42,785 bases of DNA, taken from positions 1 through 42,785 of the forward strand of contig NZ_JALKFX010000078.1 of the NCBI RefSeq assembly GCF_023243045.1, in the 5' to 3' direction. Shown piece after piece: positions 15,342 through 19,100 of this stretch (the first letter of the stretch is position 1; each line of letters opens with the position of its first letter). Source of the DNA: Frankia sp. AgB32 (GTDB lineage Bacteria > Actinomycetota > Actinomycetes > Frankiales > Frankiaceae). The notes beneath the pieces were generated by a model, which saw only the letters and a list, made by a program, of their open reading frames with translations, was not told the origin of the DNA and made no database searches. Made by a program: the position numbers and the translations under genes.

Positions 15342-16286
15342 TCAGGTGGCGCGGGCGGGGGATGCGTCGTGTGGGGTGCCGATGAGTAGCAGGATCTCGT
15401 GGACCCGGGCGGAGAGCAGCCGGGAGGGTCGCAGGTCGAGGATGGCGACGATCTCGTCGAGGACGCCGCCGGCGGCGGCGGGGTCCTCGGTGACGAGGGT
15501 CGCGGCCAGCGCGCCGAGTGCCCAGCCGCGGTCGAGGGTGGCGGGGGCGGTGAGGGCGACGGCGCGGGCGGCGGCGGAGCGGGCGCCGGGTACGCGCAGG
15601 CGGGTCATGGCGTCGGCGACGACGACGGCTTCGCGGCTGTCGTCGAAGGGGGGCCAGCCGGGGTTGCGCAGCGCGCGGACGTCGGGGCGTTCGTGCAGGC
15701 GGAGCAGGGCGTCGTCGAGGCTGGGTTCGTCGCCGGCGGCGGCGGCGATGGTGACCTGCAGGGCGGCGGCCCAGCCGTCGAGGTAGGGCTGGCGGGTGGC
15801 GGCGGCGCGGGCGGCGGCGACGGCGGCGTGGCCGAGTCGGCCCTGGGCGTAGGCGATGAGCGCGTCGAGGCTGTGGGCGGTGCCGGTGAGCAGGCGGTCG
15901 TCGAGGTGGTCGGCGCACTGGGCGGTGAGGGTGGCGAAGCGCCGGGCGCTGGTGTCGTCGCCGGTGTCGGTGGCCAGGAACCCGAGGTAGAAGGACAGGT
16001 AGCCGGCAACGCGGGTCAGTTCGCGGTGCACGGCGGGGGTCAGGCGGCGGCCGAGGGCGGCCTGGACGCGGCGCCAGTCGCCGATGATGGGGCCGAGCAG
16101 GTCGCGGTGGGGTTGGTGGAGCAGGGTGGTGGAGTAGCGGTAGAGCCGTTCGTCGTATTCGGTGAGGGTGAGTGGGTCGGGGTCGGCGAAGGCGATCTCC
16201 CGGGAGATCATCGCGGCGGCGCGGCCGGCGGCGGACAGGCCGTGGCGGTCCGGTGTCGGTGTGGCCGGGAGCTCCTCGGCGTCCAT
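15342..16286 (-). CDS. TPR-like protein resembling the C-terminal half of XRE regulators
   Basis: The 314-residue protein is almost entirely alpha-helical with repeating Ala/Leu/Arg helices (GYLSFYLGFLATDTGDDTSARRF, HLDDRLLTGTAHSLDALIAYAQGRLGHA), like the TPR-type C-terminal domain of Streptomyces and Frankia XRE-type regulators. There is no N-terminal HTH, so it is either a stand-alone TPR protein or a regulator that lost its DNA-binding part. The N-terminus (DRHGLSAAGRAAAMISREIAFADPDPLTLTEYDERL) is not a signal peptide. It is convergent with the PPOX gene. No function can be assigned. Confidence 0.75.
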   Translation of the reverse strand: MDAEELPATPTPDRHGLSAAGRAAAMISREIAFADPDPLTLTEYDERLYRYSTTLLHQPHRDLLGPIIGDWRRVQAALGRRLTPAVHRELTRVAGYLSFYLGFLATDTGDDTSARRFATLTAQCADHLDDRLLTGTAHSLDALIAYAQGRLGHAAVAAARAAATRQPYLDGWAAALQVTIAAAAGDEPSLDDALLRLHERPDVRALRNPGWPPFDDSREAVVVADAMTRLRVPGARSAAARAVALTAPATLDRGWALGALAATLVTEDPAAAGGVLDEIVAILDLRPSRLLSARVHEILLLIGTPHDASPARAT

Positions 16287-16846: not shown

Positions 16847-17617
16847 TCAGGTGGTGGTGGTGAGGATGCGGGGGCCGTCGGCGGTGATGGCGACGGTGTG
16901 TTCGACGTGGGCGGCGCGGCTGCCGTCGGTGGTGTGCAGGGCCCAGCCGTCGGGGGCGGTGCGGTAGTCGTCGTGGCCGCCGGCGAGGAACATCGGTTCG
17001 AGGGCGAGGACGAGGCCTTCGCGCAGGCGCATGCCGCGTCCGGGGCGGCCGTCGTTGGGCACCGAGGGTGGTTCGTGCATGGCGCGGCCGATGCCGTGGC
17101 CGCCGAAGTCGCGGGGAATGCCGTAGCCGGCGGCGCGCCCGACGGTGCCGATGGCCGCGGCGATGTCGCCCAGGCGTGCGCCGGGGACCGCGGCGGCGAC
17201 GCCGGCGGCCAGGGCGCGGGTGGCGGTGTCGATGAGGCGGGTGTCGTCGGGGTGGGCGGTGCCGATGGTGAAGCTGATCGCGGAGTCGCCGACCCAGCCG
17301 TGCAGGGTCGCGCCGCAGTCGATGCTGACCAGGTCACCGTCGCGCAGCGCGGTGTCGTCGGGGATGCCGTGGACGATGGCGTCGTTGACCGACGCGCAGA
17401 TGACCGCCGGGTAGGGGGTGGGGGCGAAGCCGGGCTGGTAGTGCAGGAACGCTGGGGTGGCGCCGGCGTCACCGATGACGGTGCGGGCGAGTTCGTCGAG
17501 TTCGCGCAGGGTGACTCCGGCGGCGGCGGCGTCGCGGACGGTGCCGAGCGCGCGGGCGACGACGGCGCCGGCGGCGGCCATGGCGTCGATCGCGGTGGGC
17601 GTTTTCAGGTCGATCAT
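16847..17617 (-). CDS. map: Type I methionine aminopeptidase (accessory copy)
   Basis: The enzyme removes N-terminal Met from nascent proteins. The 256-residue protein has the pita-bread fold with the expected metal ligands: Asp in VSIDCGATLHGWVGDSAI (two Asp), His in GGHGIGRAMHEPP, Glu in LALEPMF and Glu in HVEHTVAIT. Bacteria usually carry one map next to secY/adk; this copy lies elsewhere and is divergent from an XRE regulator, so it is probably a regulated paralogue. Expression likely starts from the palindromic intergenic region. It has no N-terminal SH3 zinc-finger extension. Confidence 0.93.
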   Translation of the reverse strand: MIDLKTPTAIDAMAAAGAVVARALGTVRDAAAAGVTLRELDELARTVIGDAGATPAFLHYQPGFAPTPYPAVICASVNDAIVHGIPDDTALRDGDLVSIDCGATLHGWVGDSAISFTIGTAHPDDTRLIDTATRALAAGVAAAVPGARLGDIAAAIGTVGRAAGYGIPRDFGGHGIGRAMHEPPSVPNDGRPGRGMRLREGLVLALEPMFLAGGHDDYRTAPDGWALHTTDGSRAAHVEHTVAITADGPRILTTTT

Positions 17618-17663: not shown

Positions 17664-17695
17664 CCCCTATAGAAATACCGGTATTACTATAGGGG
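17664..17695. promoter_or_regulatory. 32-bp near-perfect palindrome, probable operator
   Basis: CCCCTATAGAAATACC and GGTATTACTATAGGGG form an inverted repeat matching at 15 of 16 positions with no spacer. It ends one base before the ATG of the XRE gene and 46 bases before the map start. TACTAT at 17685-17690 is a plausible -10 for the XRE gene, placing transcription start at the ATG. The same repeat read on the other strand gives TTCTAT facing map. An XRE-family dimer bound here would block both promoters; that is inference. Confidence 0.75.
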
Positions 17696-17696
17696 C

Positions 17697-18065
17697 ATGG
17701 TGCGGACGCCGTTGACGAGGGCTCAGCGTGAGCAGGGTGTGCGGTGCGGTGCGGTGCTGCGTGCGGCGCGGGGCTCGCGCAGCATGGCCGAGGTCGCGGC
17801 CGCGGCGGGCCTGTCCGCGGAGACGCTGCGCAAGATCGAGACTGGTCGGATCGCGACGCCGGCGTTCCTCACCGTCGCCGCGCTCGCCGCGACCCTCGGG
17901 GTGTCGCTGGATCTGCTGGCCGCGTCCTGCGCCGATCCGGTGGCGGCGGGTGCCGTGCCGGCGACGTCCGCGGATCGGGGTGCGGTCGCGGATCGGGGTG
18001 CGGTCGCGGATCGGGGTGCGGTCGCGGATCGGGGTGCGGTGCAGTGGAGTTCGCTGCCCGTCTGA
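17697..18065 (+). CDS. XRE-family transcriptional regulator with ADRGAV repeats
   Basis: The 122-residue protein has a Cro/CI helix-turn-helix at about residues 20-75: LRAARGSRSMAEVAAAAGLSAETLRKIETGR followed by TPAFLTVAALAATLGVSLDLL. The C-terminus carries four ADRGAV repeats from an 18-bp tandem duplication. The ATG abuts a 32-bp palindrome and no Shine-Dalgarno sequence fits, so translation is probably leaderless. It likely represses itself and the divergent aminopeptidase gene. The same HTH–map pairing is, as far as I recall, seen in other actinobacteria. Confidence 0.85.
   Translation: MVRTPLTRAQREQGVRCGAVLRAARGSRSMAEVAAAAGLSAETLRKIETGRIATPAFLTVAALAATLGVSLDLLAASCADPVAAGAVPATSADRGAVADRGAVADRGAVADRGAVQWSSLPV
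17970..18041 (+). repeat. Four 18-bp tandem repeats in the XRE gene
   Basis: The unit GCGGATCGGGGTGCGGTC occurs four times head to tail (last base of the fourth differs). Because 18 is a multiple of three the frame is kept and ADRGAV is added per unit. The near identity implies recent expansion. Confidence 0.95.
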
Positions 18066-18286: not shown

Positions 18287-19009
18287 ATGCGGTTCACGTC
18301 TGAACAGCGCCTCGATGACGGTGTCGTCGAACGCGAGTTCCTCCTCGGTGAGATCCCCGGCGTCCTGTGGACCCCGCCGTCCGCGCCGGCTCCCCTGATC
18401 CTCAGCGGTCACAATGGCGGGCTGCACAAGCGGGAACCACGTCTGGTCGCCCGGGCCCGACATCACGCGGGCACCTACGGCTTCGCGGTGGCGGCGATCG
18501 ACGCCCCCGGGCACGGTGACCGGCCCCGTTCTCCCGCCGACGAGCGGCACCGCGCGGGCCTGCGCCGAGCGCTGGCGGCCGGGGAACCGGTCGAGGACAT
18601 CGTCAACGCGTTCCTTCTCCCCCTGGTCGAGCGGGCCGTCCCGGAGTGGCAGGCCACCCTCGACGCTGTCGTGTCGCTGCCCGACATCGCCGGGCCGGTC
18701 GGGTACTCGGGGATGACCGCCGTCGGTATTCGCCTCACGGTGCTCGAGCCGCGGATCGCCGCTGCGGTGTTCTTCGGCCAGGGTTTCGTGCCCGGTCCCC
18801 TACGCGCACAGGCCGGCGACGTCGCCGTTCCACTGCTGTTCCTCCTGCAGTGGGACGACGCGGGAATGGCACGCCAGCCGATCCTCGACCTGTTCGATAC
18901 CTTCGGTTCCAGGGAGAAGACGCTGCACGCGAACCTGGGCGGGCACGCCGGCACGCCGTGGTTCGAGGTGGATGACTCGGCGCGGTTCTTCACCCGGCAT
19001 CTGAGGTAG
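18287..19009 (+). CDS. Alpha/beta hydrolase
   Basis: The 240-residue protein has an alpha/beta hydrolase fold: PLILSGHNGGLHKRE (oxyanion-hole strand), AAIDAPGHGDRP, nucleophile elbow GPVGYSGMTAVG (Ser in GYSGM), a DD pair in LLQWDDAGM as candidate acid, and the catalytic His in NLGGHAGTPW. It has no signal peptide. Related actinobacterial proteins are annotated as dienelactone-hydrolase-like or prolyl oligopeptidase-like; the substrate is unknown. The leader ORF and hairpin upstream suggest regulated translation, and a strong terminator-like hairpin follows. Confidence 0.85.
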   Translation: MRFTSEQRLDDGVVEREFLLGEIPGVLWTPPSAPAPLILSGHNGGLHKREPRLVARARHHAGTYGFAVAAIDAPGHGDRPRSPADERHRAGLRRALAAGEPVEDIVNAFLLPLVERAVPEWQATLDAVVSLPDIAGPVGYSGMTAVGIRLTVLEPRIAAAVFFGQGFVPGPLRAQAGDVAVPLLFLLQWDDAGMARQPILDLFDTFGSREKTLHANLGGHAGTPWFEVDDSARFFTRHLR

Positions 19010-19059: not shown

Positions 19060-19100
19060 CGTGCCGGGGAGGACAGGCCCTGTCTGTCCTCCCCGGCACG
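19060..19100 (+). terminator. 17-bp perfect-stem hairpin after the alpha/beta hydrolase
   Basis: CGTGCCGGGGAGGACAG (19060-19076) pairs base for base with 19084-19100 around the loop GCCCTGT. It lies 50 bases after the hydrolase stop codon and has no U tract, as common in actinobacterial terminators. Confidence 0.8.

Follow-up and report, generated by a model that had tools for sequence, protein, structure and literature searches.

Introduction

The removal of the N-terminal methionine is generally regarded as a housekeeping step that is not regulated. The locus described here raises the question of why a bacterium would place the gene for a spare methionine aminopeptidase (MetAP) divergently beside a regulator gene, and whether that regulator controls it. 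The locus lies in a 42,785-nt stretch of DNA from Frankia sp. AgB32 (contig NZ_JALKFX010000078.1), the whole of which is called the window below. From comparison with related loci, we propose that it works as a switch in which a self-regulating repressor is dedicated to a second MetAP, a reading that we consider likely.

The second methionine aminopeptidase

The gene map (16847-17617, minus strand) is predicted to encode a true second type I MetAP of 256 aa. Its product passes the TIGR00500 model with 246.7 bits against a cut-off of 171.35. The residues D100, D111, H174, E207 and E239, which we take to be the five metal ligands of type I MetAP, are all present, and these positions are kept in 133, 133, 132, 132 and 132 of 133 aligned MetAPs, respectively. 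The original prediction had called this enzyme an extra MetAP, and a housekeeping copy was indeed found elsewhere in the same high-GC genome (6.68 Mb, G000). It is the one other full-length match, shares 50% identity and lies at G000:C212 among ribosomal protein genes, secY, adk and infA, as read from their translations. The stretch from a conserved Tyr to a conserved Cys, presumably near the substrate pocket, has 15 residues in 121/121 MetAPs linked to an XRE gene and 11 in the own housekeeping copy.

Mycobacterium tuberculosis, also an actinomycete, has a pair of type I MetAPs as well, namely MapA (MetAP1a) and MapB (MetAP1c), and the passages on these enzymes mention no regulator (PMC3154147). 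MapB carries an N-terminal extension, whereas the window copy does not. Membership of the window MetAP in the MetAP1c group was rejected, as the extension of about 40 residues is missing; residue 5 aligns with residue 48 of 1y1n_A, with only 4 residues ahead.

The XRE regulator

The map start lies 79 bp from the start of the regulator gene, on the opposite strand. The regulator gene (17697-18065, plus strand) encodes an XRE-family protein of 122 aa with a Met-Val-Arg start and a tail of short tandem repeats. The protein passes HTH_3 (PF01381) with 38.2 bits (cut-off 23) and PF13560 with 37.2 bits (cut-off 27). Its predicted model is composed of a single HTH domain and a low-confidence tail, without a ligand domain. 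The nearest solved relative is the Rhodococcus sp. protein 2ofy, recorded as a putative XRE regulator and orthologous to the window protein (residues 1-79, E 3.2e-38), and the structural match yields a Z of 14.4 and an rmsd of 2.4 over 79 aligned residues. The 2ofy records give no function, and the structure has been used as a control in dynamics simulations (PMC9861041).

After the 2ofy and ClgR chains, the best structural matches include C.BclI, C.AhdI and C.Esp1396I. Similar to XRE, C.AhdI and C.Esp1396I have a small single-domain XRE fold, and these controller proteins exert self-control at adjoining operators. However, controller genes sit with restriction-modification genes, whereas the sole partner of the XRE gene is a MetAP gene. 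We did not assign XRE to the restriction-modification C proteins, map being the sole gene common to 40 loci. A type II toxin-antitoxin system with an XRE antitoxin was also rejected, the highest-scoring antitoxin model, TIGR03070, giving 19 bits against a cut-off of 71.65 and a divergent MetAP as the partner. In the tail of the XRE gene, at 17966-18040, an 18-bp unit (translated ADRGAV) is repeated in tandem about four times; it is absent from the relatives compared.

The palindrome and its putative operator units

A 32-bp palindrome, CCCCTATAGAAATACC/GGTATTACTATAGGGG, occupies 17664-17695, with 15 of 16 arm positions paired. Both the pairing and the end one base 5' of the XRE ATG (at 17697) agree with the original prediction, whose range of 17664-17699 is corrected here to 17664-17695. 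The palindrome is real and not a product of chance: no other 16+16 palindrome without a spacer and with one mismatch or none occurs in the window, and 200 copies simulated under a first-order Markov model contained 2 in total, about 0.01 expected per window.

The -10-like hexamer TACTAT (17685-17690, plus strand) stands 12 nt upstream of the XRE ATG, which is the geometry of a leaderless transcript. On the other side, TTCTAT (17669-17674, minus strand) faces map as a probable weak -10. The single mismatch of the palindrome is the second base of this map-facing hexamer, so the map-side -10 is predicted to be weaker than the XRE-side -10 in the window. A mirror element facing map had been proposed; the hexamer is there, but it is weak, and no TANNNT stands 13 nt before the map start. 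An RNA hairpin or terminator was set aside, as the palindrome ends one base before the leaderless start and thus lies upstream of the XRE transcript.

The palindrome had been read as one 32-bp operator. This single-operator reading was rejected because relatives carry separate exact GGTAT-N4-ATACC units and their outer arms vary: the outer CCCCTATAG arms are not conserved, and the part common to relatives is ATACCGGTATTACTAT. Judged by these relatives, the 32 bp are two adjoining 14-bp putative operators of the form GGTAT-N4-ATACC, one over the -10 region of each gene, which abut at a common centre ATACC/GGTAT. The map-side unit is CCTATAGAAATACC (17666-17679) and the XRE-side unit is GGTATTACTATAGG (17680-17693). 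In both, the inner half is perfect and the outer half degenerate; the form of the unit is recognised from a more distant family (f4), where it occurs in exact copies.

Conservation of the gene pair

The comparison started from 152 XRE loci, comprising 47 of 49 examined in relatives, 80 named loci and 25 from a draw over the phylum. Of 589 relatives, the best 80 supplied the named loci, which are mostly Streptomyces and lean to close relatives. Eleven loci were dropped, ten of them as repeat genomes (L190, L192, L195, L199, L201, L206, L209, L211, L125 and L154); the other, L213, is a divergent XRE-like protein without the Met-Val-Arg start, an operator or map. The resulting pool contains 141 loci with 135 distinct proteins, in which other repeats may remain; L181 and L212 look like one genome and were both kept.

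A divergent map with a mapped start was found in 121 of the 141 pooled loci, and in 118 the two genes lie within 200 bp; the gap is just 32-33 bp in 28 pooled loci. Among the named loci (the best 80 of 589), 72 have a divergent map. The original prediction would have fallen if the palindrome had not been conserved upstream of orthologous XRE-map pairs, and this test came out in its favour. XRE matches at E <=0.001 occur in 56 of 97 relative genomes, many of them weak and not orthologues, and among 396 genomes drawn evenly across the phylum, 23 (the own genome included) had a strong XRE match, all of the same class. No third conserved gene was found in 40 loci beyond map and opposite-frame ORFs over map, any other gene occurring in at most 4 of the 40. 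A search of the plasmid collection for a plasmid-borne module gave no match at E 1e-12.

In the home family of 35 genomes, 24 have both an orthologous XRE and the second MetAP, 6 have neither, 1 has XRE only and 4 have the MetAP only (Fisher p 8e-4 for co-occurrence, with kinship ignored). XRE stands alone in G010. The MetAP stands alone in G001, at a contig edge, in G023, without a map start, in G029, masked upstream, and in G031, beside an XRE remnant. In the last of these (L108, G031:C116:9000-15500), residues 49-77 of XRE are left next to the second MetAP with a degenerate half-site, a natural regulator loss. In G010 (L036:6700-7700), XRE is kept with a degenerate site about 70 nt upstream, in a genome with one MetAP. 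Two XRE-map pairs each, all divergent, occur in the same-genus genomes G003 (L039/L060), G012 (L041/L059), G009 (L038/L071) and G002 (L040/L079).

Putative operators and promoters in relatives

At least two exact half-sites (GGTAT/ATACC) are present in the 100 bp before XRE in 112/141 loci, against 24/2,820 mononucleotide shuffles. The inner half-sites abut as ATACCGGTAT in 87 of the 141 loci and with one mismatch in 22 more, so that the inner core is conserved in 109/141. Separate exact palindromes were found in 9/141 loci, and no operator class fits 23/141. In family f4, each intergenic region holds one or two exact GGTAT-N4-ATACC copies. The XRE-side unit is also supported by position, as 89 of the 141 loci have GGTAT or GGTAC beginning 17-18 nt upstream of the XRE start. 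The operator expected to be common to both promoters of a self-controlled divergent pair is thus seen in sequence conservation.

A TANNNT hexamer begins at -13 (85 loci) or -12 (54 loci) of the XRE start, in 139/141 loci altogether. Since the -10 hexamer keeps this fixed distance of 12-13 nt from the start codon, there is strong sequence evidence that a leaderless XRE mRNA is a conserved design, which bears out the leaderless start of the original prediction. On the map side, TANNNT stands 13 nt before the start in 48 of 121 linked maps, again the leaderless geometry, and the window map is not among them. At the XRE promoters of L076, L113, L146, L167, L181/L212 and L183 the site is gone, and self-control is therefore not universal.

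Probable action on map and size of the regulon

In five genomes (G017, G024, G034, G090 and G073), map is not linked to XRE, and a site at 2 mismatches is found upstream of the unlinked map in 5/5. The upstream regions of XRE in these genomes hold part of the operator sequence. Because the operator stays upstream of map in the five unlinked genomes, XRE most likely acts on map in trans. In L146, L167 and L183, where the genes are 0.7-2 kb apart, the site is kept on the map side and lost on the XRE side.

Altogether 21 MetAP loci were inspected, of which 5 have a site at 2 mismatches, 12 have none (the housekeeping locus L083 among them) and 4 are unreadable (L092 and L107 at contig edges, L097 masked and L106 without a map start). 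Six MetAP loci whose genomes lack an orthologous XRE (L096, L100, L101, L102, L104 and L105) bear no site. Half-sites were seen by eye at the MetAP loci L095, L099 and L108. The half-site of L095 does not fit, as its genome is without an orthologous XRE.

A wider regulon was sought in 1, 20 and 10 genomes with three queries. When as many as 3 mismatches were allowed, ATACCGGTATTACTAT matched the AgB32 genome at two places in the palindrome (0 and 1 mismatch) and at three elsewhere (3 mismatches each), against 1 in the reversed control; this is how the search for the palindrome elsewhere in the genome, suggested with the original prediction, turned out. In 20 genomes, 12/12 matches of a 15-mer with up to one mismatch fell at the promoter of XRE or of map; at two mismatches, 3 did so and 5 lay elsewhere, against 10 in the reversed control, and 5/20 genomes had no match at 2 mismatches. 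In 10 genomes, the exact 14-mer unit was located 12 times at the pair and 6 times away from it, and the reversed control likewise gave 6. As other sites are at chance level in the genomes tested, the regulon there seems to be dedicated and to comprise two genes, XRE and map. The same two-mismatch 15-mer lies off XRE and map in two related genomes, at G090:C1:2862143-2862157 and G073:C133:11534-11548, by chance or as a second target.

Proposed mechanism and alternatives

Four points come from sequence comparison, namely the conserved pair, the putative operators on the -10 regions, their presence upstream of unlinked map genes and the lack of an excess of sites elsewhere. We propose that XRE dimers occupy the two adjoining 14-bp operators GGTAT-N4-ATACC, so that each bound unit would cover the -10 of one divergent promoter. 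XRE would then lower its own leaderless mRNA and the map mRNA. Upon inactivation or depletion of XRE, the cell would make more XRE and would gain the second MetAP on top of the housekeeping enzyme. The original prediction had one regulator set the level of both genes. The common site and the narrow regulon are upheld by conservation; we infer that XRE binds the sites, that it represses rather than activates, as the position of the operators over the -10 regions suggests, and that relief raises MetAP.

Restriction-modification controller proteins are activators or dual regulators, and XRE could be one as well instead of a plain repressor. C.BclI, C.AhdI and C.Esp1396I are among its best structural matches, C.Esp1396I was crystallised as a tetramer on a 35-bp operator (record titles), and two adjoining units invite differing occupancy states. 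However, a protein bound to either unit would sit on a -10 region and should keep RNA polymerase out, and no conserved site was seen at an activator position, which makes activation unlikely in our view. The -10 hexamers matter for another reading too, as the sites overlap them and part of the conservation must be promoter conservation; the conserved sequence could then be a set of strong back-to-back promoters under the control of another factor. We regard this as highly improbable, because the GGTAT half-sites reach beyond the -10s, the operator units are exact palindromes in f4, and the six MetAP loci named above, from genomes without an orthologous XRE, lack a site.

A different purpose for the enzyme would be that of a target-swap or resistance copy, induced by a natural MetAP inhibitor. 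The second MetAP does form a distinct subgroup by its Tyr-Cys stretch (15 residues in the linked copies vs 11 in the housekeeping one), and it is widespread in antibiotic producers. Yet the 40 loci share no third gene and thus give no support for a biosynthetic or resistance setting, with no conserved biosynthetic or transport neighbour; the module has no plasmid match, and XRE is a single-domain protein without a ligand domain. We therefore give this possibility a rather small chance.

The N-terminus of XRE as a possible sensor

A further idea would add a signal to the repressor switch. XRE might report trimming capacity, in that MetAP trims its Met-Val-Arg arm and the trimming state sets the operator affinity. 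A shortfall in trimming would then switch on the second MetAP through the state of this arm, which we put forward as a tentative suggestion. Val2 and Arg3 are invariant in 141/141 loci (135 distinct proteins), with all four Val codons used, and belong to the 19 invariant positions of 75 in XRE. Promoter geometry does not force Val in XRE, since position 2 is variable in the MetAP encoded alongside (V 100, I 18, M 1, L 1, T 1). In the predicted model the arm lies ahead of the first helix; in an alignment it matches the lambda repressor arm, with a common PLT following, at weak profile support (probability 31.6). The arm of lambda repressor touches DNA. The modelled chain B of 2ofy comprises residues 5-84, so that residues 1-4, the tip of the arm, fall outside; chain A, however, is two residues longer. 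Met-Val is often a poor MetAP substrate (PMC11255114, citing two papers).

The invariance of Val2 and Arg3 is explained just as well if the arm simply touches DNA or protein, and Met-Val-Arg is kept in G010, which has only one MetAP. For these two reasons the sensor reading is held to be doubtful. We know of no bacterium that senses N-terminal methionine excision. If the idea were true, the N-terminus of XRE would close a feedback loop on a protein-maturation step. A precedent for the sensor idea alone is anti-TRAP of Bacillus subtilis, which has a Met-Val start and whose N-terminal formyl state alters its assembly; it differs in that it is not DNA-binding, the formylation was seen in overexpression, and it is not a MetAP feedback loop (PMC11255114).

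Relation to known systems

One partial precedent for a regulated second MetAP was found, yflG of B. subtilis, which is little expressed and about two-fold higher in a yvoA mutant (PMC1266368). As proposed for the window, a second MetAP is lowered there by a transcription factor. Unlike XRE, YvoA belongs to the GntR family, regulates N-acetylglucosamine genes, is no dedicated partner encoded divergently and comes from another phylum (PMC1266368). No description of the XRE-map pair was found in the open-access literature searched. As far as searched, the parts are ordinary, and the dedicated pairing and its breadth are undescribed.

The pair is kept in Streptomyces, in Streptosporangiales-type genera, in Frankiaceae and in the more distant family, which argues that the dose or kind of MetAP matters for fitness, and suggests that many soil bacteria hold a spare MetAP under dedicated control. 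The orphan solved structure 2ofy gains a probable operator and target. The map promoter offers a ready handle on which condition calls for the second MetAP.

Other features of the locus

Next to map on the same strand, the gene at 15342-16286 shows an NsdA-family likeness below the cut-off (47.3 of 75 bits), and a relative of it adjoins the XRE-map pair in L043, a locus of the same genus. At 19061-19099, just past a gene ending at 19009, two perfect 16-bp arms flank a 7-bp loop; this inverted repeat is a possible terminator.
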